Assembly (NCBI RefSeq): GCF_009371975.2 | Contig: NZ_VIKT02000005.1 | Span: 62,001-126,000 of the forward strand | Reading direction: 5' to 3' | DNA from: Microcella pacifica | Lineage (GTDB): Bacteria > Actinomycetota > Actinomycetes > Actinomycetales > Microbacteriaceae | Length of the DNA: 64,000 nt | In this document: in pieces, positions 12,841-41,372 of the stretch | Layout: each line of letters opens with the position of its first letter | How positions within the stretch are numbered: position 1 is the first letter of the stretch | Notes under the pieces: model-generated | The model's database searches: none | What the model saw: the letters and a program-made list of their open reading frames with translations, nothing else | What the model was told of the DNA's origin: nothing | Made by a program: the position numbers and the translations under genes

Positions 12841-14958
12841 CTACTCGCCGTGCGCCCGGAACAGCAGCATCGAGGTCGGCCCGACGTCGAGCGCCGTACC
12901 GGGGGAGTGCTCAGACGCGAGGTCGGAGATGTCGTCGTGCGAGCTGTCCCACAGCAGCGTGTAGCCGGTGACCCCCTCGTGCTCGGGCAGCGTCACCTGC
13001 ACCGGCTCCTCCAGGCCGTGGACGACGAGCAGGATGCGGTTGAACTCTTCGCGCTCAGGGGTCGACGCCGCGAGGTACTGGAGGGTGCGCTCGGCGGGCG
13101 AATCCCAGTCCTCCATCGTCATGGAGGCGCCCTCCTTGTTGTACCAGTCCATCTGGGTCGCGTTGGGCACCGTCTCGCCCCAGCGGCCGTATCGGCTGGG
13201 CCGCAGCGCCGGGTTCTCGCGGCGCAGCTGCGTCAGGCGCGAGGCGACCCGCAGCAGGTCCTGCTGCCAGCCCTCGTGCGCCCAGTCGAGCCAGGTGAGC
13301 TCGCTGTCGTGGCAGTACGCATTGTTGTTGCCGCGCTGCGTGCGCCCCACCTCGTCGCCCGCGGTGATCATGGGCGTGCCGGCGCTCAGCAGCAGCGTGC
13401 CCAGGAGGTTGCGCATGGCCTTGCGCCGCGCGCCGGTGATGCCGGGCTCGTCGGTGGGACCTTCCACTCCGAAGTTGTAGGAGCGGTTGTGATCGTTGCC
13501 GTCCCGGTTGTCCTCCCCGTTGGCCACGTTGTGCTTGTGGTCGTGGCTGACCAGGTCGGCGAGCGTGAAGCCGTCGTGCGCGGTGACGAAGTTGACGCTC
13601 GCGAGCGGCCCGCGCTCGGCGGCGAACACGTGCGCGCTGCCGGTGATGCGGCGGGCGAGCGACCCGATGCCCTCCGGCGCGTGCCCGTGCTCGCGCGCCG
13701 AGGCAATGTCGGTGAGCCAGAAGTGTCGCGCGCGGTCGCGGTAGCCGTCGTTCCACTCGCTGTACCCGCGGGGGAAGTTGCCGACCTGCCAGCCGCCCAT
13801 CCCGACATCCCACGGCTCCGCGACCATCGTCACGTCCTGCAGGGCGGGGTCGTCGAGAATCGCCCTCAAGAGGGGATGCTCGGGGTCGAAGTGCGCCGCC
13901 GCATCCCGCCCGAGCGTGGCCATGAGGTCGAAGCGGAACCCGTCCACCTGCACCTCGCGCGCCCAGTAGCGCAGCGAGTCGAGGATGAGCCGCTGCACGA
14001 CGGGCCGCGAGGCGTCGATCGTGTTGCCGCAGCCGGTGACATCCAGGTACTCGCCGCCGCCGCCGCTGCCGCTGCCACTCTCGCCCTCGCCGTCACCGGC
14101 CCCGCCCCCGATGTGCCGGTAGTAGGTCGCGTTGTCGATGCCGCGAAAGCTCGACGTCGGGCCGTCGAGCCCCTCCTCGGCGGTGTGGTTGTAGACGACG
14201 TCGAGCATGACCTCGAGGCCGGCCTCGTGCAGTAGCCGCACCATGCCCTTGACCTCGCGCAGCACGGCGTCCGGGCCGCCCTGCTGGGCCTTGCGCGTGG
14301 CGTACGCCGCGTGCGGGGCGAAGAAGTTCAGCGTGTTGTAGCCCCAGTAGTTGGTGAGGCCGAGGGCCTGCAGCCGCTGCTCGCTCACGAACTGGTGGAT
14401 CGGCAGCAGCTCGACCGTCGTCACGCCGAGGTTCTTGAGGTACGCGATCGTCGTCGGGTGGGCGAGCCCCGCGTAGGTGCCGCGCAGCTCGTCCGGCAGT
14501 TCGGGTGCGAGCTTGGTGAGCCCCTTGACGTGCGCTTCGTAGATGACGCGCTGATCGTCCGGGATGCGCGGCTTGCGCACGCCGCCCCAGTCGAACGCGT
14601 CCCCGAGCACGCGGGCGCGCCACTCGCCGCGCGGGCTGCGCTCGACGCCGCGCGCGTAGGGGTCGAGCAGCAGCCGGTCGGGGTCGAAGGCGTGCCCCGT
14701 GCCGCGTTCGGCGTCGCGCGGGCCGTCGACCCGCAGTGCGTACACGGCACCGGGGGAGAGCTCGCGCGCGGCGATGTGCCACGTTCCCTTGTCCTTCTTC
14801 ATGCGGTGCATGACCAGCTCGCCCGTCACCCGGTCGAGGTCGTCCGGGTCGAACAGCACGAGCCGCATGCTCGACGCGTGCTCGCTCCACACGCGCAGCT
14901 CGCCGCCCGTCGACGTCGGGTGCACGCCGAGGCGCGCGAAAGCGGGTGCGGAGGGCAT
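12841..14958 (-). CDS. glgX: Glycogen debranching enzyme GlgX
   Basis: A 705-residue GH13_11 isoamylase-type enzyme that cleaves alpha-1,6 branches after phosphorylase action. The catalytic Asp is in DGFRFDLMATLGRD, the Glu in MVAEPWDVG and the third Asp in VTAHDGFTLADLV. An unusual Gly/Ser/Glu-rich insert of about 19 residues (near residue 290, DNA 14040-14110) sits between YYRHIG and EYLDVTGCGN; in relatives these segments are nearly adjacent. The ATG at 14958 lies 7 nt after TACCCT (14971-14966), indicating a leaderless transcript. Confidence 0.94.
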   Translation of the reverse strand: MPSAPAFARLGVHPTSTGGELRVWSEHASSMRLVLFDPDDLDRVTGELVMHRMKKDKGTWHIAARELSPGAVYALRVDGPRDAERGTGHAFDPDRLLLDPYARGVERSPRGEWRARVLGDAFDWGGVRKPRIPDDQRVIYEAHVKGLTKLAPELPDELRGTYAGLAHPTTIAYLKNLGVTTVELLPIHQFVSEQRLQALGLTNYWGYNTLNFFAPHAAYATRKAQQGGPDAVLREVKGMVRLLHEAGLEVMLDVVYNHTAEEGLDGPTSSFRGIDNATYYRHIGGGAGDGEGESGSGSGGGGEYLDVTGCGNTIDASRPVVQRLILDSLRYWAREVQVDGFRFDLMATLGRDAAAHFDPEHPLLRAILDDPALQDVTMVAEPWDVGMGGWQVGNFPRGYSEWNDGYRDRARHFWLTDIASAREHGHAPEGIGSLARRITGSAHVFAAERGPLASVNFVTAHDGFTLADLVSHDHKHNVANGEDNRDGNDHNRSYNFGVEGPTDEPGITGARRKAMRNLLGTLLLSAGTPMITAGDEVGRTQRGNNNAYCHDSELTWLDWAHEGWQQDLLRVASRLTQLRRENPALRPSRYGRWGETVPNATQMDWYNKEGASMTMEDWDSPAERTLQYLAASTPEREEFNRILLVVHGLEEPVQVTLPEHEGVTGYTLLWDSSHDDISDLASEHSPGTALDVGPTSMLLFRAHGE

Positions 14959-14964
14959 GAGTCT

Positions 14965-14971
14965 TAGGGTA
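14965..14971. promoter_or_regulatory. Shared bidirectional -10 box of glgX and the cysteine desulfurase gene
   Basis: On the plus strand TAGGGT (14965-14970) ends 7 nt before the desulfurase ATG. On the minus strand TACCCT (14971-14966) ends exactly 7 nt before the glgX ATG. Only 19 bases separate the two start codons, so both transcripts would be leaderless and RNA polymerase could occupy only one promoter at a time. Confidence 0.6.
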
Positions 14972-14977
14972 AAGGCG

Positions 14978-16156
14978 ATGACGATCTACCTGGACCACGC
15001 GGCGACCTCGCCCATGCCGCGCGCCGTGCGCGAGCGGTACGTCGAGGCGCTCGAGGTCGTGGGCAACCCGTCGTCGATCCACTCCTCCGGCCAGTCGGCG
15101 CGCGCCCTGCTCGACGAGGCACGTGCCCGCATCGCGGCCACCCTCGGCGTCGACCCGATCGAGGTCACCTTCACGGGCGGCGGCACCGAGGCGGTCAATC
15201 TGGCCGTCAAGGGGATGCTCTGGTCGCGCCGCGCGGCCGGCCACGGCTCGCGCATCCTCGCCCCGGCAGCCGAGCACCACGCGACCCTCGATGCGGTGCA
15301 GTGGCTCGTCGACCACGAGGGCGCGACGGTCGACTGGTTGCCCGTCGACGCGAGTGGCCGGCTGCGGCTCGACGCCCTCGAGGCGGCGCTCGCGAGTGGG
15401 CCCGCCGCTCTGCTCACGATGCTGTGGGCCAACAACGAGGTCGGCACGCTGCAGCCGGTCGCCGAGGCGGCGGCGCTCGCCGCGGCTGCGGGTGTTCCCG
15501 TGCACGTCGACGCGATCGCCGCCTACGGCCAGGTGCCGCTCGCGCCCGTGCCCGTGGGGGTGAGCGCCGTCTCGATCTCGGCCCACAAGGTGGGCGGGCC
15601 CGTGGGCGTCGGCGCGCTCGTGCTGCGCCGCGGTACCGAGGTCGAGCCGCTGCTGCACGGCGGCGCCCAGCAGCGGGGCCGTTCGGGCACGATGGACGCC
15701 GCGGGGGCGGCCGCGTTCGCGCACGCTACCGAGCTCGCGCACGACGCGCTCGACGACCGGGCGGCGCACAAGCGTGCGCTGCGCGATCGGCTCGCGGAGG
15801 GCATCCGGGATCGCGTGCCGGAGGCGCGCCTCTCGACCGACCTGACCGATTCTCTGCCGGGCACGCTGCACCTGCGCGTGCCGGGGGCGGAGGGGGATTC
15901 GCTGCTGTTCCTGCTCGACCAGGCGGGGTTCGCCGTCTCGACCGGGTCGGCGTGCCAGGCGGGCGTGCCCGAGCCTTCGCACGTGCTGCTGGCCATGGGG
16001 GTCTCGCCCTCCGAGGCGAGGGGCTCGCTGCGCATCTCTCTCGGCCCCGACACGACCGCCGCCGAGATCGACGCCCTCCTGGATGCCCTGCCTCACGCCA
16101 CCCGCCAGGCCCTCGCCGCGGGGCTCGCGGCGCGGCAGCCGCGCCTCGGCCGCTAG
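14978..16156 (+). CDS. Cysteine desulfurase (NifS/IscS class)
   Basis: A 392-residue PLP enzyme that removes sulfur from cysteine to form an enzyme persulfide. N-terminal [14 protein letters not shown] is typical. The PLP Lys is in [12 protein letters not shown], the PLP-contact His in AEHHATLD, and the persulfide Cys in [17 protein letters not shown] 14978 was chosen because the family starts at this residue and the -10-like TAGGGT lies 7 nt upstream; the open frame extends further but is antisense to glgX. The next gene is mnmA, which needs this sulfur for tRNA 2-thiouridine. Confidence 0.93.
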
Positions 16157-16257: not shown

Positions 16258-17511
16258 ATGAAGGTTCTCGCGGCGATGAGCGGTGGCGTCGACAGCGCCG
16301 TGGCTGCCGCGCGCGCGGTCGACGCGGGCCACGACGTCGTGGGCGTGCACCTCGCGCTGAGCCGCATGCCGGGCACCCTGCGCTCGGGTGCGCGCGGCTG
16401 CTGCACGATCGAAGACTCACTGGATGCTCGTCGCGCGGCCGAGAGGCTGGGCATCCCGTTCTATGTGTGGGATTTCAGCGAGCGGTTCCGCGACGACGTC
16501 ATCGACGACTTCATCGCCGAGTATGCGGCCGGCCGCACGCCCAACCCGTGCATGCGCTGCAACGAGCGCATCAAGTTCGCGGCCGTGCTCGAGAAGGCCC
16601 TCGCGCTCGGTTTCGACGCCGTCGCGACCGGGCACTACGCGCACATCGTGACCGACGACTCCGGGCACCGTGAGCTACACCGCGCCTCCGACGAGGCGAA
16701 AGACCAGTCGTACGTGCTCGGGGTGCTCACGAGCGAGCAGCTCGCGCACGCGATGTTCCCGCTCGGGCGCACGCCGAACAAGGCCGCCGTGCGGGCGGAG
16801 GCATCCGCACGCGGGCTCACCGTCGCGCAGAAGCCCGACAGCCACGACATCTGCTTCATCCCCGACGGCGACACCCGCGGTTGGCTCGCCGACCGCATCG
16901 CTCCGGAGGCGGGCACCATCGTCGACCGCGACGGTGCGCAGGTCGGCTCGCACGACGGGGCGACGAGCTTCACGGTCGGCCAGCGCCGCGGACTCAACCT
17001 CGGCGTTCCTGCTCCCGACGGCCGCCCGCGCTTCGTTCTCGAGGTGCGCCCGCGCTCGAACGAGGTCGTCGTCGGCCCGCGCGAGGCGCTCGCGGTGCGC
17101 GAGCTCGCCGGCGCGCGCTTCACGTGGGCGGGGCTCGACCCGGTCGCATCCGGCATCGCGGTCGCCGATTCCACCGCACCGGATGCCGTGGCCGAGTTCG
17201 CGTGCGAGGTGCAGGTGCGCGCGCACGCCGACCCGGTGCCAGCGCGGGCTCGCGTGGTGCCGAGTACGGGCGCAGCGCCGGGCGCCGCCGCCGACGCGGA
17301 CGACGCCGGCTCGCCCGCCGGGCTCCCGAGCGCGGGCACCCTCGAGCTCGTCGTCACGGTGCAGGAGCCCCTCCACGGCGTCGCCCCGGGCCAGACCGCC
17401 GTGATCTACGTCGGCACGCGCGTGCTCGGCCAGTGCACGATAGATCGCACGGTCAGTGCCGATGCGCACTCGGATTCGCCGAGCGACGCCGTGCCGGCCA
17501 CCGCGTCTTGA
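16258..17511 (+). CDS. mnmA: tRNA-specific 2-thiouridylase MnmA
   Basis: A 417-residue enzyme that 2-thiolates wobble U34 of tRNA Lys/Glu/Gln. The PP-loop SGGVDS is at residues 9-14. The catalytic Cys pair is the first Cys of [12 protein letters not shown] and the Cys of [10 protein letters not shown]. The C-terminal beta-barrel contains a family-atypical Ala/Asp/Gly linker (about residues 335-360). ATG 16258 has GGAGG just upstream and TACCCT (16246-16251) 6 nt before it. The preceding 100-nt spacer is C-rich and holds two CTGCAG copies but no gene. Confidence 0.94.
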
Positions 17512-31413: not shown

Positions 31414-32822
31414 GGTCAAGTCCCTGGTAGTGGTGTAACGGCTGATCCTTCGCTTTATGCGCTGAGCGCGATGAAGGTATCGGCGACCACCTCGCTTTCG
31501 ATGTCGGGCACCACGCGCATGCGGGAGCGGGCCAGAACCTCCAGTCCCAGGTAGCGGCGCCCCTCGGCCCACTCGTCGGTCTGCTCGGCCAGGACGCCGC
31601 CGACCAGGCGGATGATCGCGTCGCGGTTGGGGAAGATGCCGACGGAGTCGGTGCGGCGGCGGATCTCGCGGTTGAGGCGCTCGTTGGGATTGTTCGACCA
31701 GATCTGTGACCAGACGTCTTTGGGGAAGTCGGTGAAGGCGAGGATGTCGGCCCTGGCGGTATCGAGGTGCTCGGCGACCGCGGGTAGCTTCTCGGTCACG
31801 TAGTCCAGGGTGCGATCGAACTGAGCGTGGACGTCTGAGGCGGTGGGTTGGTCATAGACGGAGTGCAGCATCGCTTTCACCGCCGGCCACATGCTCTTCG
31901 GGCTCACGCTCATCAGGTTCGCCGCGTAGTGGGTGCGGCAGCGTTGCCAGGTCGCACCGGGCAGGTTCGCCGCGATCGCGTCTTTCAGCCCGGCGTGAGC
32001 GTCACTGGTGACCAGCTGGACCCCGGTCAGGCCGCGGGCGACCAGGTCGGCGAAGAACGCATTCCACGCCGACCCGGTCTCAGCTGTCGCTGTCTGCACC
32101 CCCAGGACTTCGCGGCGGCCGTCGCCGTTGACGCCGGTGGCGATCAGCACGACCGTGTTCACCACCCGGCCGCCCTCGCGAACCTTCATCGTGAGAGCGT
32201 CGGCTGCGACGAAGGTGAACGGGCCTGCCTCCAAAAGCGATCGGTGCCGGAACTGGTTCACGTGCTCGTCGAGCTCGGCCGCCATCCGGGAGACCTGCGA
32301 CTTCGACAGGGCGTGAATGCCGAGCGTCTTCACGAGTTTGTCCATCCGACGAGTGGACACCCCGGCGAGGTAGCAGTCGGCGATCACGGTGATCAGAGCC
32401 GCCTCGGACCGTTTGCGGCGCTCCAGCAACCACTCGGGGAAGTAGGTGCCCGATCGTAGTTTCGGGATCGCGACATCGATCGTGCCAGCCCGAGTATCGA
32501 GGTCTCGGTGGCGGTAGCCGTTGCGGTGAGTGACACGGTCAAGGCTCGGCTGACCCCATTCGGCGCCGACCACGGCGTCGGCGTCGGCGGACAGGAGGGC
32601 GTTGATTATGGTTTGCAGCAGGTGTCGCATCAAATCGGGCGACGCGTCGCTGAGGGCTTCACCGAGCACCGTTGCAGGGTCGACAATGTGGGGAGCGGTC
32701 ATCGTGTTGATGCCTTTCGAGTTGGGGTAAGAGACTTCTCGAAGGATCACACGGTGACCGCGTTCACGTCGTCACCGACGCGGTGGGCCACCGGGCGTTA
32801 CACCACTATGCGGGACTCCACC
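31414..32822 (-). mobile_element. IS256-family insertion sequence, complete (1409 bp)
   Basis: The left end (GGTCAAGTCCC...) and the right end read in reverse (GGTGGAGTCCC...) agree at 22 of the first 27 positions and both run into TAGTGGTGTAACG. The 8-bp direct repeat GGCGCGGC flanks both ends exactly. The single transposase gene is intact, so the element may be active. It sits inside the gatB fragment. Confidence 0.92.
31455..32702 (-). CDS. IS256-family transposase
   Basis: A 415-residue DDE transposase of the Transposase_mut family. The catalytic residues are in VAADALTMKVREG (D), LVTSDAHAGLKDA (D) and NNPNERLNREIRRR (E). ATG 32702 is preferred because the family starts near here and AAAGG precedes it; an in-frame ATG 48 nt upstream adds residues atypical of the family. 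No frameshift or stop. Confidence 0.93.
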   Translation of the reverse strand: MTAPHIVDPATVLGEALSDASPDLMRHLLQTIINALLSADADAVVGAEWGQPSLDRVTHRNGYRHRDLDTRAGTIDVAIPKLRSGTYFPEWLLERRKRSEAALITVIADCYLAGVSTRRMDKLVKTLGIHALSKSQVSRMAAELDEHVNQFRHRSLLEAGPFTFVAADALTMKVREGGRVVNTVVLIATGVNGDGRREVLGVQTATAETGSAWNAFFADLVARGLTGVQLVTSDAHAGLKDAIAANLPGATWQRCRTHYAANLMSVSPKSMWPAVKAMLHSVYDQPTASDVHAQFDRTLDYVTEKLPAVAEHLDTARADILAFTDFPKDVWSQIWSNNPNERLNREIRRRTDSVGIFPNRDAIIRLVGGVLAEQTDEWAEGRRYLGLEVLARSRMRVVPDIESEVVADTFIALSA

Positions 32823-32830
32823 GGCGCGGC
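32823..32830. repeat. Target-site duplication, right copy
   Basis: GGCGCGGC, identical to 31406-31413 and directly abutting the right terminal repeat of the IS. Confidence 0.85.
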
Positions 32831-33286
32831 AGGCGCTGGAGGGTGTCATCGAGGGGGAGGGCGCTCCCGCCGAGGTCATTGCGGCTCGCGGCCTGGAGGT
32901 CGTCTCGGACGACGGTGCTCTCATCGCCGCGGTCGATGCGGCGCTCGCCCAGCAGCCCGACGTGCTGGAGAAGATCCGCGACGGCAAGGTGCAGGCAGCC
33001 GGCGCCGTCATCGGTGCGGTGATGAAGTCGATGGGCGGCAAGGCCGATGCGGCTCGGGTGCGCGAATTCGTGCTGGAGCCCGAGCAGGTGGGAAAACTCC
33101 AGACCGCTTGCCCGGAGGGCGAGTCCGGAGCCTACCAATGCTGGATTCGGGACACTCTGAGCTTGGCATCGTCACTGGCGTCCGTAATGAGCAGAGTCCT
33201 GATCAAGACGATGCCAGGCCAAAGCAGTCCGACTCACCGAGGATCCGTGGACTACGAATGGATCGCGAACAGTCGAACGTACTCCT

Positions 33287-34489
33287 CTAGTGCGTCTGCG
33301 GGTAAAGGGTCCAATCTGAGGGATCGAAAACCGACCATTCGTGATCTGTCTTCGACCGTTCGATAGCCCACCTCGTCCTCCACCAGGCGGCGATCTCATC
33401 CACTTCGAGTGTCTGCCAGTCCAATTCGGCGTCGTCCCCGCGAAGCCAAGCCAGGGAGTTGCTGGCTAGTTCAGATACGAACACTTGGCGGTGAACACCG
33501 TGGACTCGCATGCCATGTGAGTTTAGGCCAAGCGACGACATGGCTTTTTGGATCACTTCCCGACGATTCCTGAAGCCACGACCCCATTTCTCGTGTCTTT
33601 GAGACTCTCCCAGCTCGGTGTCGGACATCGCGAAAGCGGCAAGTCGGTCATATATTGCTCCCGAGAGATGGAAGTCCCCGCTCCCCTTGGTGAATCCGAC
33701 CGGCCGTAGGACCAGCGATCCGTCCATGCGCCTCACTCTGTTGTAGACCGAAGAGCGCCCAAGAGCAGAGGTGGTTGTGATCAGTGCGAGGTGAGCATCA
33801 GGATCTCGTTCGCTAATCAGTGTGGTTCGGTGGCCATACCGTTCTCGGAACGCATCGCTTAGAGTCCTCGACTGGAGAAGCGAAGCAAGTAGTTTCCCTC
33901 CGAGCAGGTGAGAGTAAGGAGGCACCGCTCCCAGGACGAAAGCGTCCATGACACTCGCTAGCTTTGTCATTCGTTGATCCCTGGACCAACCAATTTCCTT
34001 GTCTCGAACCCCTAGCGCGAACACGGGATCCGCCAGTCCGATTAGTCCAATGACTGCGTCTCCGTGTGCTTCATCAACAACCAGGGCCCTGATTCGACGA
34101 CCGTAGCCCGACGAAACTGGAATCGTCCAATGGAGTGAGCACCACCTCCAGAGAAGAGCGTTCTCAGAGCGCCCGGTCGGAAGAATCTCCAATCGCGGCT
34201 TGATATCAGCCGGATTCAAGTCTGAACCCGCGCGTAGCCTCCTGGCGAAGCGAGTGTCTAGTTTGGCGAGTGCGCCATGAGCACGATCTCTTTGTGCTGC
34301 TACCGACTCTGCGTGGAGGTTGCGTACTGAGTCCTTGTCGGTGGAAACCGGCACGATCAGGCCACGATCGGTCAGCTTGAAGCCTTGATCCCGAAGATGC
34401 TGAAACAACGCCGAACGAAGCTCGTTGGCAACTTTCTCTCGACCGGCGACTACATTCTGAGCTATTGGGACGGCTTCCGCTGCATCCAT
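33287..34489 (-). CDS. DUF4338 protein related to Druantia DruA
   Basis: A 400-residue protein. The central block, about residues 125-230, with [40 protein letters not shown] and [20 protein letters not shown], has the order and spacing of DUF4338 (DruA of Druantia anti-phage systems), whose biochemical role is unknown. A strong AAGGAGGG lies 3-4 nt before ATG 34489. It is the last gene of a leftward operon, 95 nt after the 378-residue protein. GC is visibly lower than in flanking housekeeping genes. No DruE-type helicase is adjacent, so this is not a standard Druantia locus. Confidence 0.75.
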
Positions 34490-34584
34490 CGGCCCTCCTT
34501 CTCGTCCTAGTCGCTATGCGATCAAGCTACTGGCCACCTTGGGGACGTCTACGCCCGCAGCGCGGTCAACTGCAGGTTGCGACC

Positions 34585-35721
34585 TCACTGCACCTCCGTG
34601 AGCTGACCCACACTAGACAGAAGGCTCGAAATGTCCTGCAAGCTACCGAGATGTAGCAAGTATATTTGGCCGACCCCGTGGGAGTAGCTCCTGCCGGCAT
34701 ACCGGGCAGGACCAAGAAGTTGAGCCTTCACATCCGACCGCATCTCGCAGAACAACGCGGTCGCCACGGTCTGCATCTTCGATCCGAATGGCAACACCGT
34801 CAGACGCTCGTGCCCGAAAGCATCCTGGTAGCATGACTCGAGACGTTGAAGTGTTTCTGCATAGTTCAAGGTTGACGTGACGTGGAAGTCCATCTCCGAG
34901 TTGCCTTCCACCGATGAGTGGATGTCCATCATCGCTGTCAGCCTCCACTCATCCTTCTTGCGCGGTGGTCGACCAGCGATGTAGGTGACCCGAGAGTGCG
35001 GAACATCAATATTGAACGCCGTGTCGATGTGGTCTAGTGCTGCTCTAGCGCGGTCCGCATTGAAACCGCAGACGACTACCGCTCGGTCTGGAACATGCTC
35101 GATGTGCTGCCCCGGGTACTCAACGGAGGGACTCACTTCCTCAGCGTCGAAGTCGAGACCTAGAGTCGATTCGCCTGGCTTTCGTGAGGCCTCGATGAGG
35201 GCTCGCGCCTCGCGATGAGTGGGGGCGTATTCGCCTGCCTCGGCATACGCGATCGTCAAGATCACCTGCAGCCGAGACGATCTCTGCAACTCGAACAGTG
35301 AGCGAAGGACGCGGAGGATGATGCGCCCAGATGCTCCGCTTATGTCGAGCAGGATTCTGACCACATCGTCCGCCGCACACGCCTCCGCGATCTCTTGCAG
35401 CTCGTTCCGAAGCTTCGGAGCGGCTATGCCGAACTCAACATGAATGACACGCTCTGAACACACTGACAGAGCTTCTTCAAGATCGTCGACCGTGCGGCGA
35501 TTGTCTTCAATGTTGCTGGGGTAGTGAAGGAGCAACGTAGTTGCCACCCGAATGTGGCGCTGGGCAAGCCACTTAGGCACGGCCGCGGTGCGATCTTCGA
35601 AACCATTGACTGCGACACAAAGATCAAACTGCGGCAAGCCAGACTTCTCGACAGACTCGGCCGTAGCCAAGGGGGGCAGTTGGCCGATGACATCCGAGAG
35701 AGTGGTCTTATGAAAGCGCAT
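34585..35721 (-). CDS. Unrecognised 378-residue protein with FEDR and DISG motifs
   Basis: The first half has a strand-like LCVAVNGFEDR block, LLLHYPSN and then ILLDISGASGRIILRVLRSL, followed by ILTIAYAEAGEY. The second half has RAVVVCGFNADRAR and VTYIAGRPP. The alternating hydrophobic strands and Gly-rich turns suggest two Rossmann-like halves, but no known catalytic signature is present and I do not recognise the family. ATG 35721 overlaps the end of the kinase-ATPase gene by 14 nt and has GGAAGG 8 nt upstream, so the two proteins are translationally coupled and probably act together. Confidence 0.7.
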   Translation of the reverse strand: MRFHKTTLSDVIGQLPPLATAESVEKSGLPQFDLCVAVNGFEDRTAAVPKWLAQRHIRVATTLLLHYPSNIEDNRRTVDDLEEALSVCSERVIHVEFGIAAPKLRNELQEIAEACAADDVVRILLDISGASGRIILRVLRSLFELQRSSRLQVILTIAYAEAGEYAPTHREARALIEASRKPGESTLGLDFDAEEVSPSVEYPGQHIEHVPDRAVVVCGFNADRARAALDHIDTAFNIDVPHSRVTYIAGRPPRKKDEWRLTAMMDIHSSVEGNSEMDFHVTSTLNYAETLQRLESCYQDAFGHERLTVLPFGSKMQTVATALFCEMRSDVKAQLLGPARYAGRSYSHGVGQIYLLHLGSLQDISSLLSSVGQLTEVQ

Positions 35722-38215
35722 CGAAGTCGCCTTCCCACAGGCCGGTATCCGGCTTCTTTCTGCGCTGAGCTTCCTGGACAGCGAGCATCTCGACAGGGCT
35801 CTGCAGGAACCACTGGAACTGGCCGGGTGCGATCTTCACTGCGTCGTTCTTGCCAAGGCCGGCACGAAACGCGGGCAGGTAGATCCGTCGAAAGTGCCAG
35901 CGCAACGACGTCACGTTGTCATGCCGACTTCGCCCAACGTCCATTTCAATGAACACTGCCCGCCTCAGCAGTTCCTGACTTAGTTCAAGCTCTTTTTCGC
36001 TAAGCTTTATGGTCGCATTCGAAGCGCTGTCGACTTCAATTCTGGGGACTTGAATCGGAACGATCTTGCCATGCTCTTTGATTCCCTTCCCCTTTCGGTA
36101 CGCATTGCCAACAAACTTGCCATATGCGTTCGCGATTTCATACATCGACTTCCCCAACGGACGGTGGTAGACGACCGCGTGAAGAAGCTGCCGGCTCGTC
36201 TCACGGACTGCCTTGTCTTGGAGCGAAGAGGAAACGGTTGCGACGGTGTAGGGGCCGCTCATCGCGAGCATGCGCCTGTATAGAAACAGAAGAGTCGAAA
36301 CATCGCCGGAACACAATTGTGATATGACGTCGACTCCGAAGTAGGCAGCGTTCTGTGAGCCTGCCTTTGTGAGAGCCGTATTCATCTCCTCGGTCGACGG
36401 GGAATTGCCGAGTAGATCTGCCGCAGTGCCCTGCCATTGTGCGGCTCGCAGCCGATTATTGAGAAAGTCCAGAGCAAACTGGCGGTTCGGCACCGTCGAC
36501 TCACGCTTGAGATACTCGGCGCCACAATCGATTTCAATACGTTCTCGTGCTGGGTCTGCGGTTAGCTTGTTCCAAGTCGCTATGGCGCCGTACTTCTCGC
36601 TGCTCACCTTGAAGATGTGGCTCGAGCGGCGTTCCCAGACAATAGGCGAGAGGATCAGCTGAACTGCCTCCGTTATCCGATGTGTACTGAAGTCGTCGAG
36701 CAAGAACGCAATCGGGTGCGCGGAGAAGAACGGCAGAATCTTCTCGACCCGCGACGTTACGTCTGCGATAAGGGTTGCCGGTGCAATCGGCGCGGAAGTC
36801 GCGTTGTGCAGTCTCTGTTGCGATGCGAAAATCTCTTGCTCTACTCGTTCCCGCGCGGCGACCAAGGGTGAAGGGCTGAAGCGGACGGTGTGTTCGGACG
36901 GCAGGAACCGAACAACCATCTCGTGGATTTCTATCGCCTGGTCTTCTCCAAGTCCGAAGACTGACTCTGAGTCATGCCGCGCGGCAATCGCAATGAGGGT
37001 ATTCAGCAATTCGAGCACATGGAGGAGGTTGAAATAGTGGACGATCTCGCCTTCGTGGCCGAGCGTATCCTCCGGCGTCCGAAAGTGACTAAATCGCGTT
37101 TGCAAGTCAGAGGTGCACGACACGTAGACGCCACTGATTCTCAAGGTATCGAGTGGGACTGGTGCTTGTTCTTGGCTGGCGTGCGCGCGCAGCGACAGCC
37201 ACCTGAAGACCATACTCTTTCCGCACCCGCGAGGTCCAGTCAGCAAGATGGGGTCAGCACTCGCAACTGCGTCGACCCATGTCGTACGCGCAAAGAGCGT
37301 TAGGAGCAGTTCATCGCTGCTAATTTGCTCCGCACTGATGTATTCGAATGGGTTGGAGAGTCGTTGCCCCCGGTTCGTTGGCATCTGGGCTGCGGACATC
37401 GCGTCAAGGATTGCGCGTCGGATAGCCTCCCCGCTTCGCAGAGCTCGGTTGGCATCGTCTTCGACCATCATCTGGACAACGGGAAGCAGGGCGGCCAAGA
37501 AGCGCCTATCAGAAAGGCTGATGTCCCTTCGCCTTGCAACAATGTTGTGAAGACGAACTAAATGGCGTGCAACGTGGTCTACGTCGCTCACGCCTTTCGA
37601 TGTTCGTTCGGCATGCTTGAGGCTTCCCGTATCCACAACCACGAGTTGGAATCGATCTTGGCCTGCCTGGCTGTATCCGGCTTCACCGGCTCGCGCCGGA
37701 CGGAGCATCAGGTTTTTGGCATGCAGATCGTCGTGCGCCAGGTTGTTGCCCTCGAGTGCCTCCAGCGCGCTCGAGATTTGCCGTGCAAAGCTGACGATCG
37801 TACTTACAGATATCTGGCCGGCGTGCTCATTGCATAACTCGTCTAGTGTGATGGCATCATCGACCCATTCCTCAATGGAGACGATGAATCGTCGATCGGT
37901 CCCAGAAGGAACCCACTCGCCAGCGTCGGCCCACCTCGTAAACAGTGGTGACGGAAGTCTGCCTCTTCGCGCGGCCTCGGCGAAGACCGACTTGTCGACG
38001 TAGTCCTCTACCAGAGTCAGCTTCGCGGCATATTCTTGGCCGTATTCGTCTTTGACCTTCCAGACAACACCCTTGAAGCCGTGAGTGATGTACTCAACAG
38101 GGAGGTAGTCACGTCCGACGTGGAGTTTGCCGTCCTCAAATATTGCGGCCTTGCTGAGCAACTGGACAAGCTCGTCGTCGAGGTCGCCGATGCCTAGTTC
38201 ACGAGGGGCACTCAT
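35708..38215 (-). CDS. Protein-kinase-like domain fused to ORC/CDC6-like P-loop ATPase
   Basis: An 835-residue fusion. Counted from ATG 38215, residues about 35-240 are kinase-like: GFKGVVWKV (loop), the ATP Lys in EYAAKLTL (about 65), HDDLHAKNLML (161-171) as catalytic loop and VVVDTGS (about 193) in place of DFG. A P-loop NTPase follows: Walker A GPRGCGKS (327-334), Walker B AFLLDDFS (about 503) and FKVSSEKYG as a sensor-like strand. This resembles ORC/CDC6-type AAA proteins found in defence loci. AGGA precedes ATG 38215; an ATG 21 nt earlier is possible. GC is low, indicating transfer. The role as sensor/effector of an anti-phage system is inferred. Confidence 0.75.
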   Translation of the reverse strand: MSAPRELGIGDLDDELVQLLSKAAIFEDGKLHVGRDYLPVEYITHGFKGVVWKVKDEYGQEYAAKLTLVEDYVDKSVFAEAARRGRLPSPLFTRWADAGEWVPSGTDRRFIVSIEEWVDDAITLDELCNEHAGQISVSTIVSFARQISSALEALEGNNLAHDDLHAKNLMLRPARAGEAGYSQAGQDRFQLVVVDTGSLKHAERTSKGVSDVDHVARHLVRLHNIVARRRDISLSDRRFLAALLPVVQMMVEDDANRALRSGEAIRRAILDAMSAAQMPTNRGQRLSNPFEYISAEQISSDELLLTLFARTTWVDAVASADPILLTGPRGCGKSMVFRWLSLRAHASQEQAPVPLDTLRISGVYVSCTSDLQTRFSHFRTPEDTLGHEGEIVHYFNLLHVLELLNTLIAIAARHDSESVFGLGEDQAIEIHEMVVRFLPSEHTVRFSPSPLVAARERVEQEIFASQQRLHNATSAPIAPATLIADVTSRVEKILPFFSAHPIAFLLDDFSTHRITEAVQLILSPIVWERRSSHIFKVSSEKYGAIATWNKLTADPARERIEIDCGAEYLKRESTVPNRQFALDFLNNRLRAAQWQGTAADLLGNSPSTEEMNTALTKAGSQNAAYFGVDVISQLCSGDVSTLLFLYRRMLAMSGPYTVATVSSSLQDKAVRETSRQLLHAVVYHRPLGKSMYEIANAYGKFVGNAYRKGKGIKEHGKIVPIQVPRIEVDSASNATIKLSEKELELSQELLRRAVFIEMDVGRSRHDNVTSLRWHFRRIYLPAFRAGLGKNDAVKIAPGQFQWFLQSPVEMLAVQEAQRRKKPDTGLWEGDFDALS

Positions 38216-38282
38216 TAGTCCTGTATACCGCATCACGGTAGGTGTCGCGTTTTGTGAAGGAACGAGACAGACCGCGCCTTGT

Positions 38283-38777
38283 CTAGCGCGGCTCAGCTCC
38301 TATGGTTCGCCAAGCGAACCTGGGCTCGAGTGCGAAGAGATCACCATTCCCGCTGCTCGCTCGAGTGACCATGAGTCCCTCCACAAGAGCAGCGAAACCA
38401 TTTAGTTCCGCAAGCGCGCCCTCGAGACGCGTCAACTCTGTGCTCGTCGCGTGGGACTCGGAGAGCGCCTGTGCGGCGGCACTTCGGCGCCGAAGTACTT
38501 CTGACGCAAAGATCTCCAAAGCGGCGAAATCGAGGTGGTCCGGCTCGCGACGAAGGCCAAGCGATCGCACCTCTGACGCCTGATGCTCCGCGAGCAGAGT
38601 GTCCCTACTCTGGCATCGATCGGTACGGGTGTCGACGATGAGGGTCTCGCCGCAGGAGCACTCGTATTCGATAACGCCTCGTGCTCGAGACCAGCCTTGC
38701 GGTTCGATCAACTGATGACGCGCCAAGGTTTGTGCGATCTCGCCATCAAGAAGTTCATTCATTTGGCTGTTGTCCAT
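38283..38777 (-). CDS. Small CxC protein heading the kinase-ATPase operon
   Basis: A 164-residue protein from ATG 38777 (an in-frame start 60 nt upstream would add 20 residues). Residues about 30-60 contain EYECSCGETL, a third Cys in DRCQS and LAEHQASEV, which could make a small metal-binding fold. The second half is helical and Ala/Glu-rich. It lies 67 nt before the kinase-ATPase gene on the same strand and shares its lower GC, so it is probably the first gene of the same operon. Family unknown. Confidence 0.55.
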   Translation of the reverse strand: MDNSQMNELLDGEIAQTLARHQLIEPQGWSRARGVIEYECSCGETLIVDTRTDRCQSRDTLLAEHQASEVRSLGLRREPDHLDFAALEIFASEVLRRRSAAAQALSESHATSTELTRLEGALAELNGFAALVEGLMVTRASSGNGDLFALEPRFAWRTIGAEPR

Positions 38778-39140
38778 CCATATTGATGTGATTCTGGTCG
38801 ATGGCCAGACGCGCGGCGATTTCTGCGGGTAGGACACGCTGGCAGACTAGACGCCCAAGAAACAAGTCTTATGCTATCGGCTCTCGCTGGGCCCAGCAGT
38901 CACCCTTTTGGGGGACCAAAGGCAGGGTGATTCTCCTCTCCCCATGACCCGCTGGAGTTCTGTGTGCGTGGATTGGCCGATACGCGTCACGGAGAATTCC
39001 TCGAGAAGAATGAAGTGATCATTCCATTGCTGTATCAAGCCCGAAGCCCGAAGCCCGACGGGCAAGATCCAGTCCCTTGGGATATGCGCATTCCCGCGCG
39101 AGAAGCTCATTGTGTTGGCGGCTGCCTGCGGAGGCCGATC
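38778..39140. other. Right boundary of the low-GC island
   Basis: About 360 bases between the small CxC gene and the NERD-helicase gene. A minus-strand frame of 78 codons (38874-39110) has no recognisable content. I find no integrase, tRNA end or clear direct repeat marking an attachment site. The promoter of the leftward operon should lie here but I could not place it. Confidence 0.4.
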
Positions 39141-41270
39141 TCAATGAGTCGATGACTTGACGCCCTCAACCAACGAATTGCTCACGGTGTAGTTGCGGCA
39201 ACCAACCCACAACCCATCGCGGGCGCGGGTCATGCCGACGTACAGCTCCCGCCGCTCGATCTCGCGACGCTCCCGGGCTCCATCGTCGAGCCCCTCGACC
39301 GTGAGTGCGAGCAACTCCTCGGCCACGCGCCCGAGCAGCACGTGCTTGAACTCGAGACCCTTCGCGCGCTTAATCGTTCCGACCTTCACGAGCGAGGCAG
39401 TCGACCCCGTGTAGCTCGTCAACTCGACCACGCCGAACCCGGCTGCGCGCAGCGCGGTGGCGAGAGCCTGGGCATCCCGATTCGTCGCTGCCAGCACACC
39501 GATGTCGCCGGCATCGACACTCGAGGCGACGAGCGACCGCACGTGCGCCACGAGAGCGGCATCGTGCTGGGCGTGCGACGCGAACGACGACAGCACGGGG
39601 GAGGGGCCGGTGCGGGGGACGGCGAGCGCGGCATCCGCCCGGCCCGGCCCGCCCTCGATGTCGACGAACTCGTCACCCTCGACAATCGAAGACGCGAACG
39701 ACGCGATCTCGCGGGTGTTGCGGTAGTTCGTCGACATGACGACTCCGCGGCCGGCGACCGAGATGCCCGACTCGGAGAGCGAGTAGCCGCCCGTGTAGAT
39801 GGTCTGCTGGCCGTCGCCGATCAGCGTCAGGCCGTCGGGGCGGTCGCCGACGATCGCGTGCAGCATGCGCAGCATGACGCACGACAGGTCTTGCGCCTCG
39901 TCGATCACGACGGCGCTGATGCCCTCGAGTGGGCGCTCGCGCAGGGATGCCTCAGCGTGCAAGATCACATCCTCGAAGTCGACCACCCCCGCGGTGCGCA
40001 GGTTCTGCTCGTACTGCAGGTACAGCCGCCACACCTCGCGACGCTGGTCGACGCCCAGTCGTCGGCGCCGGCCGCTACGCGCCAGATCGGCGTACTGCTC
40101 GAAGCTGGTCAACCCTCGGCCCTTGATGACCTTGAGCAGCTCGTCCTGCCAGTACTTGCTGTTGGCGTCGACCGACCCGAGCAGGCCGTTGCGGCCGACG
40201 ACCGCCCACGCGCGGTTGAACGCCTGCGTCGCCTCCGGCAGCTTGAGCTCGACACGGTGCCCGCGCTCGCGCAGCACCCGCAGGGCGAACTGGTGGATGC
40301 CCGTGAACTCGACCCGGTCGGCGACCTCCGGTGCGAGCCGCTGCAGCAGCGTCGAGAGCACGTCGGGCAGCGTGCGCACATACGTTGTCACGATGACGCG
40401 CCCCGTCGTGCCGCGCGCCAGGTACGCCGCCCGGTGCAGCCCGACAACCGTCTTGCCCGTGCCGGCGGCCCCGCGAATCCTCGCCGGGCCTGAGAAGCTG
40501 CGTCGCACGAGCTTCGCCTGATCGGGGTGCAGAAAGGCCATCCACTCCTCGATGGGGGCGGCGAGCATCCCCGCCAGGAACGTGTCGGCCACCTCGTCGA
40601 CCGTCAGCAGCGCAGGCCCCTCGATCACCGGGTCGGGAACGCTCAGATCGCGCGGCACGGCCTCCTCGCCGAGCGGCGGAAAGTGCGCCATGACCGCGCC
40701 CAGCACGGCATGCTGCTGGCGCTCCGTCAGGCGGCGCCCGAACCCGTTGATGAACGCGGATGCTCGCCTCTCGCCGACCACCACCAGGCCGCCCAGGCTC
40801 GAGAGCGCTACCGCATCCATCGCGGAACCGGCGAGCACCACGACCACGCGCACCTCACCCGGAGCGAGCCCCAGCTCGGCGAGCACCGCCTCGGTGCCCA
40901 CACCGACGTCGGCGAGCCCGGCCAGGTCGTCGGTCACGTCGGCCTGGCCACGGAAGAGCCGCCCGCCCGCGACCGACACGTCGCGCCACCCCTTCGTGTC
41001 GACGACGAAGACGCCGCCCGGCCCGACGAGCACGTGGTCGATCTGCGCGCGGCTGCCACGGCGGGCGCCCGGCCAGCCGCGGTCGTGCAAGAACGTGAAG
41101 CCGCACGCGCTCAACGGCGCGAGCGTGCCGGCCACCTGCCGCTCGGTGCGGTGGGCGATCATCCAGCGCTGGGCAGCCTCGCGGGCCGCGGCCGCGCGCT
41201 CATCGTGCGCATCGGCGAGCGCGACGAGGCGGTGTGCCTCGACCCCCGCCGACCTGCCTGCCTCGCTCAT
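39141..41270 (-). CDS. NERD nuclease-UvrD-type helicase
   Basis: A 709-residue protein. The N-terminal NERD domain has the nuclease core QIDHVLVGPGGVFVVDTKGW. The helicase domain has Walker A IRGAAGTGKT, Walker B AVVIDEAQD, motif III-like LIGDGQQTIY, TNYRNTREI and a C-terminal RELYVGMTRARDGLW. This nuclease-helicase combination is known in anti-phage proteins such as Nhi and in DNA repair. ATG 41270 is chosen; the 28 extra upstream codons are Arg-rich. Codon use matches the chromosome, so it may be older here than the adjoining island. Confidence 0.85.
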   Translation of the reverse strand: MSEAGRSAGVEAHRLVALADAHDERAAAAREAAQRWMIAHRTERQVAGTLAPLSACGFTFLHDRGWPGARRGSRAQIDHVLVGPGGVFVVDTKGWRDVSVAGGRLFRGQADVTDDLAGLADVGVGTEAVLAELGLAPGEVRVVVVLAGSAMDAVALSSLGGLVVVGERRASAFINGFGRRLTERQQHAVLGAVMAHFPPLGEEAVPRDLSVPDPVIEGPALLTVDEVADTFLAGMLAAPIEEWMAFLHPDQAKLVRRSFSGPARIRGAAGTGKTVVGLHRAAYLARGTTGRVIVTTYVRTLPDVLSTLLQRLAPEVADRVEFTGIHQFALRVLRERGHRVELKLPEATQAFNRAWAVVGRNGLLGSVDANSKYWQDELLKVIKGRGLTSFEQYADLARSGRRRRLGVDQRREVWRLYLQYEQNLRTAGVVDFEDVILHAEASLRERPLEGISAVVIDEAQDLSCVMLRMLHAIVGDRPDGLTLIGDGQQTIYTGGYSLSESGISVAGRGVVMSTNYRNTREIASFASSIVEGDEFVDIEGGPGRADAALAVPRTGPSPVLSSFASHAQHDAALVAHVRSLVASSVDAGDIGVLAATNRDAQALATALRAAGFGVVELTSYTGSTASLVKVGTIKRAKGLEFKHVLLGRVAEELLALTVEGLDDGARERREIERRELYVGMTRARDGLWVGCRNYTVSNSLVEGVKSSTH

Positions 41271-41372
41271 GGTGCCCCCAGTTGCCGCTCGGGGCGACAC
41301 CGCGCTGAACCCGAGCCTCGCTCTAGTCTGTCGCCTCAAGCTCGGCAGCGGCACCCCCTGAGGTGGGGGCGC

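Follow-up and report, generated by a model that had tools for sequence, protein, structure and literature searches.

Prokaryotic bidirectional promoters that arise from symmetry of the -10 element were described by Warman et al. (2021, as cited in the reports consulted), and the portions of two reports available to us place the divergent start sites of such promoters 7–25 bp apart, most often 18, with the T at -7 and the A at -11 of one direction reciprocally paired with those of the other (PMC12825309, PMC10268837). Within the same excerpts, five promoters of this type from E. coli are described as having basal activity too low for polymerases to compete (PMC12825309). Leaderless genes of the actinobacteria, according to partial texts of two further papers, carry the hexamer TANNNT about 12 bp upstream of the start codon (PMC3160421, PMC3898074), and the divergent neighbours prpD and Rv1129c of M. 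tuberculosis are both reported there to be leaderless (PMC3898074). Here we consider a site at which these architectures appear to meet: the 19-base gap between the divergent glgX and cysteine desulfurase genes of Microcella pacifica is likely to be a minimal bidirectional promoter of the known -10-symmetry kind, with both genes leaderless.

The window (the whole 64,000-nucleotide stretch of M. pacifica DNA that was analysed) contains the two genes head to head (Table 1). The names given to them in the initial annotation hold; glgX is above the cut-off of its NCBIfam model, with its best named relatives in the Microbacteriaceae, including a Microcella MAG, and the desulfurase matches its Pfam family, with NifS as its best NCBIfam match, below the equivalog cut-offs. 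A YbaK-type Cys-tRNA(Pro) deacylase gene lies downstream of glgX, and mnmA lies downstream of the desulfurase. Farther on, ligA (17620, plus strand) has its own TANNNT, TAGACT, 6 nt 5′ of its start codon; because mnmA and ligA each have a TANNNT of their own at 6 nt, the desulfurase, mnmA and ligA may be a run of leaderless genes rather than one operon. Elsewhere in the window, a minus-strand stretch (31455–41354) has a lower GC content (about 57–62% versus about 70%) and is a possible defence island.

Table 1. Features of the window, with positions counted from its first base.
Feature	Position	Strand	Basis or remark
glgX, glycogen debranching enzyme, 705 aa, predicted leaderless	12841..14958	minus	NCBIfam TIGR02100 above cut-off
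glgX start	ATG begins 14958	minus	sequence
Alternative in-frame desulfurase ATG, disfavoured	14957..14959	plus	within CATG that also starts glgX
TAGGGT, -10-like, 7 nt 5′ of desulfurase ATG	14965..14970	plus	sequence
TACCCT, -10-like, 7 nt 5′ of glgX ATG	14966..14971	minus	sequence; relatives
Putative symmetric -10 core TANNNTA (here TAGGGTA), common to both strands	14965..14971	unstranded	sequence; relatives
Cysteine desulfurase start	ATG begins 14978	plus	sequence
IscS/NifS-type cysteine desulfurase, 392 aa, predicted leaderless in this genome	14978..16156	plus	Pfam PF00266
mnmA, tRNA 2-thiouridine synthase	16258..17511	plus	own TACCCT 6 nt 5′ of ATG; matched control
Mutator-family transposase	31455–32750	minus	lower-GC stretch
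DruA homologue	33287–34489	minus	lower-GC stretch
CARF-like protein	34585–35721	minus	lower-GC stretch
Kinase/AAA protein resembling CARF-STK-AAA	35708–38236	minus	lower-GC stretch
NERD-UvrD helicase	39141–41354	minus	lower-GC stretch

A re-reading of the sequence bears out the geometry first described, in which the ATGs are separated by 19 bases (14959–14977, GAGTCTTAGGGTAAAGGCG), TAGGGT on the plus strand and TACCCT on the minus strand have five bases in common, and each hexamer lies 7 nt from its start codon; all of these values are exact. The fixed letters of TANNNTA are their own reverse complement, such that an A added to TANNNT creates a -10 box on both strands, offset by one base. Specifically, the bases at 14966 and 14970 are the reciprocally paired -7T and -11A of both strands, which is the sequence signature of the -10-symmetry promoters, and the divergent transcription start sites predicted from the sequence are 18–20 bp apart. 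The compact arrangement at this site is more than chance, in that the pattern CATN6TANNNTAN6ATG has a single match in the window, a single match in the 2.72-Mb assembly as a whole and none in any of 100 dinucleotide shuffles. Between 14400 and 14977 there is no other TANNNT facing the desulfurase, nor is there another facing glgX between 14950 and 15500, and a search for a -35 element against TTGACA with spacers of 15–20 gave nothing convincing (best match one of six bases on the plus strand and three of six on the minus strand). A pyrimidine is usual directly 5′ of a transcription start site; the base directly 5′ of the desulfurase ATG is a G, and this counts against a two-way leaderless promoter.

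In the mechanism that we propose, the housekeeping sigma factor would use the 19-base gap as a minimal two-way promoter. The key -10 bases of TANNNTA, the second-position A and the last T, would pair with each other's counterparts across the strands, so that RNA polymerase could melt this one stretch of DNA whichever way it faced. The predicted 5′ end of each transcript is the A of its ATG or a position no more than about one base away, with the consequence that both mRNAs would be leaderless. We infer transcription in both directions, as well as these start points, from sequence.

It is informative to examine the site in light of its relatives. From 111 loci collected, we kept 87 in which both genes are present, divergent and at most 200 bases apart, the window (L001) included; those dropped were a duplicate of the window (L002), 18 loci without the pair and 5 with the genes more than 200 bases apart. 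Among the relatives examined glgX is very probably leaderless, because 83 of the 87 pairs have a TANNNT 6–7 nt from an in-frame glgX start (6 nt in 21, 7 nt in 62), whereas every other offset between 1 and 30, when starts could be chosen just as freely, gives only 0–6 of 87. Of the earlier claim that both genes are leaderless, the comparison thus supports a leaderless glgX, through these 83 loci, and a leaderless-type geometry for the desulfurase in this genome.

The base that follows the box is special to this gene pair, where it is kept far above its rate at other promoters. The A that turns TANNNT into TANNNTA occurs at 66 of the 83 loci with a glgX box, the other 17 being without it. As background we used 1.26 Mb of DNA (the window and 60 stretches of relatives), in which 161 starts have a TANNNT at 6–7 nt, compared with about 17 expected by chance from other offsets. 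With the window's own two left out, the A follows the box at only 3 of 159 other leaderless-type promoters, which is a depletion relative to the 6.2% of all 2153 TANNNT in this DNA that are followed by A (one-sided p ~0.01). Likewise, in the mnmA control (77 loci from the same set, duplicate removed), a TANNNT lies at 6–7 nt in 71 loci and is followed by A in 4 of the 71; at the 69 loci with both boxes, the A is present at glgX only in 50, at mnmA only in 0, at both in 4 and at neither in 15. The corresponding p-values (Fisher 3.6e-39, McNemar 1.8e-15) are both too small because the loci share ancestry, and on a tree of the 87 rows the symmetric state amounts to 6 changes, the tree being a quick one with some weak deep branches and with L082 and L084 on long branches. 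We take the comparison as strong evidence that the symmetric base is under selection, which lends indirect support to transcription in both directions.

This base might instead serve glgX alone, with the A favoring glgX initiation, TAGGGT arising as a by-product and the desulfurase transcribed from elsewhere. We consider this unlikely, although the glgX promoter is unusual in another respect, in that its box lies mostly at 7 nt (62 of 83) while leaderless-type boxes at large lie mostly at 6 nt (115 versus 46). Furthermore, while the T column of the symmetric box shows only 9 four-letter changes compared with 26–36 for columns 11–34 past the box, neighbouring columns on the glgX side of the box show conservation as well, and therefore conservation alone is no proof of two-way use. 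Most of the weight for such use comes from the contrast with other promoters: the near absence of the A from the 159 leaderless-type promoters described above argues against a role in glgX initiation alone, as does its rarity where glgX has no adjacent divergent desulfurase, with a box in 6 of 20 loci and the A in 1 of those 6, in a small sample.

The middle three bases of TANNNTA vary freely (GAG, GGC, CAG, GGG and others), and a check that had been proposed at the outset, conservation of the literal TTAGGGTAAA, found that word at this site, among 258 loci, in just two genomes, that of the window and that of its nearest relative, G003; the conserved element is TANNNTA and not the literal word. 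A conserved near-palindrome between divergent genes could also be an operator through which a transcription factor controls both of them. We set this explanation aside as extremely improbable in view of the variable middle bases, and the word also keeps the distance of a -10 box, 6–7 nt from the glgX start.

Loss of symmetry correlates only partially with gain of a separate desulfurase box. The association is clear for L026, where TAGGTT lies at 6 nt, and suggestive for L035, L037 and L039, where the hexamer at 6 nt is CATGCT, which departs from TANNNT at one base. It is not seen in a clade of 11 rows (for the most part Microbacterium) in which symmetry was lost and the gap contains no replacement TANNNT facing the desulfurase. 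L080 has both the symmetric shared box and a separate desulfurase box. The three loci with CATGCT have a common block, GTCATGCTTGTTAC, directly ahead of the desulfurase ATG, and this CATGCT may itself be a -10 box in weakened form.

The position of the desulfurase start relative to the box provides a second line of comparison. Three symmetric rows (L005, L043 and L059) have no assigned desulfurase start, and in the remaining 63 of 66 the distance is 6–9 nt in 6 and at least 21 nt in 57, with none at 10–20 nt. Such a gap is expected if transcripts from the box have either no leader or one with room for a ribosome site, and it argues against use of the box by glgX alone. So does the observation that the shared box is the sole TANNNT facing the desulfurase within the gap at 54 of the 57 long-gap symmetric loci. 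Among the 74 loci with a gap of more than 20 nt and an assigned desulfurase start, a Shine-Dalgarno-like word (from a loose list of ten 5-mers, sought in the last 20 nt of the gap) is present in 59, including 48 of the 57 symmetric ones. Gaps of at most 20 bases are found in L001/L003, L053 (Gryllotalpicola), L074 (Salinibacterium MAG), L084 (Clavibacter) and L082; on the tree, these short gaps require 5 changes. All of these loci except L082, whose desulfurase start lies 9 nt from the shared box, have both starts 6–7 nt from that box, and this dual spacing is thus present in the window's lineage and three others. Counting all 87 loci, a TANNNT lies 6–7 nt from the chosen desulfurase start in 8, of which 5 use the shared box and 3 a separate one.

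In most relatives, then, the desulfurase lies further from the box, usually with a Shine-Dalgarno-like leader. Under the two-way mechanism, the glgX side would be leaderless and fixed in most of the Microbacteriaceae examined and the desulfurase would be expressed through that leader, while in the window's lineage and a few others the starts are so close that both genes would be leaderless. Desulfurase genes without a divergent glgX (L028, L030 and L031) show, when read by eye, TAGAAT 6–7 nt upstream. In L021, also read by eye, TAGGCT lies 7 nt 5′ of a GTG from which about 14 codons can be read before a TGA that overlaps the ATG of the desulfurase, apparently as in a leaderless upstream ORF.

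It is also worth considering that the desulfurase of the window may not be leaderless at all, being translated from the ATG at 14957 or from a leader transcribed from a promoter inside glgX. The reading frame is open from 14699, a start at 14957 would add seven codons (MSLRVKA), and GGAGGG lies one base upstream of that ATG. However, one base is too close for a Shine-Dalgarno site, which counts against this start. The start at 14978 is preferred over 14957 because the homologues begin at the place of 14978. In addition, no TANNNT points toward the desulfurase between 14400 and 14964, and of the relatives with compact spacing L084 has the CATG out of frame and L074 lacks it, all of which makes a start at 14957 or a longer leader quite improbable. 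We conclude that the site is very probably a conserved two-way promoter of a known kind, here taken to a dual-leaderless extreme.

We looked across 60 genomes for a genome-wide excess of the compact geometry and found none in raw counts, the site totals being tallies from match tables. CATN6TANNNTAN6ATG has 7 sites compared with 13 for an AT-centred control, and CAYN5TANNNTAN5RTG has 42 compared with 91, with a backwards control likewise not lower; a pattern in which the boxes overlap by 2 bp has 28 sites compared with 13 for its control. Real and chance sites are told apart by the flanking genes and not by raw counts. Among the 7 sites, ORFs of at least 100 codons occur on both sides only at the two glgX/desulfurase sites (G000 and G003). 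For CAYN5TANNNTAN5RTG they do so in 13 of 29 loci drawn versus 2 of 30 of its control loci, and for the 2-bp form, which has no control loci of its own, in 12 of 21 loci drawn. Several of these rows look orthologous by site and length, and the separate pairs number about 7 and about 10, respectively. By Pfam, four of the loci pair an M20 peptidase with a tetrahydrodipicolinate succinyltransferase-like protein (L201), a lipoyl ligase with a Gfo-Idh-MocA oxidoreductase (L206), a polyprenyl synthetase with DUF3040 (L187) and a periplasmic binding protein with a FecCD permease (L208). In the 1.26 Mb, 11 divergent pairs have a TANNNT 6–7 nt from both starts, and the boxes overlap in three of them: the window (5 bp), L164 (2 bp) and L122 (2 bp). 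Six relatives of the genus (L190, L192, L194, L195, L197 and L198) have a further divergent pair of dual-leaderless type on a shared TANNNTA, with proteins of 223 aa and about 311–319 aa (one ORF in L194 is cut by the contig end); a Pfam search at 1e-5 with the L190 and L192 proteins gave no match for either protein.

The initial annotation held that the two promoters must be mutually exclusive and that polymerase competition links glycogen debranching to sulfur transfer. It is correct that two polymerases cannot sit on the box at once, but output would be altered only at high occupancy, and the five E. coli promoters of this kind are described, in the available part of the source, as free of competition at basal activity (PMC12825309). 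The regulatory link is therefore a hypothesis and not a consequence of the arrangement. Competition between the two directions is possible; the analysis gives no support to a metabolic link between the two pathways.

Start-site maps reveal that bidirectional promoters fire in both directions, but not whether this is selected. Here, evolution itself can be read at one base pair, which much of a family has retained at this gene pair and which is rare at other leaderless promoters. If transcription in both directions is true, this would be about the smallest divergent promoter possible, and exclusion between polymerases would be testable by two single-base changes. We offer more tentatively, and with greater doubt than belief, the idea that -10 symmetry is an evolving switch in high-GC actinobacteria, in which one base, the A after TANNNT, would set a promoter to one-way or two-way use. 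Symmetry would then be avoided at one-way leaderless promoters, selected where a divergent gene depends on it and might lock the glgX/desulfurase pair together through the family, and overlapping dual-leaderless pairs would form a small class that recurs in two geometries (5-bp or 2-bp overlap).

In the literature searched we found no report of two leaderless genes on one -10 box, which does not establish its absence from print. As far as the known systems are described in the portions of the sources available, the site resembles the -10-symmetry promoters in its overlapping boxes on opposite strands, its paired -7T and -11A and the distance between its predicted starts, which falls inside the range of 7–25 bp. 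It differs from them in that the start codons lie on the predicted start sites, such that the promoter core is the whole intergenic gap, and in that those promoters are known from start-site maps whereas the evidence here is evolutionary. With the leaderless genes of actinobacteria it shares a TANNNT 6–7 nt ahead of the ATG and the lack of a usable Shine-Dalgarno site, although here the same box would serve a second gene on the opposite strand. The prpD and Rv1129c genes of M. tuberculosis are likewise a divergent pair with two leaderless mRNAs, which in the present case are predicted.
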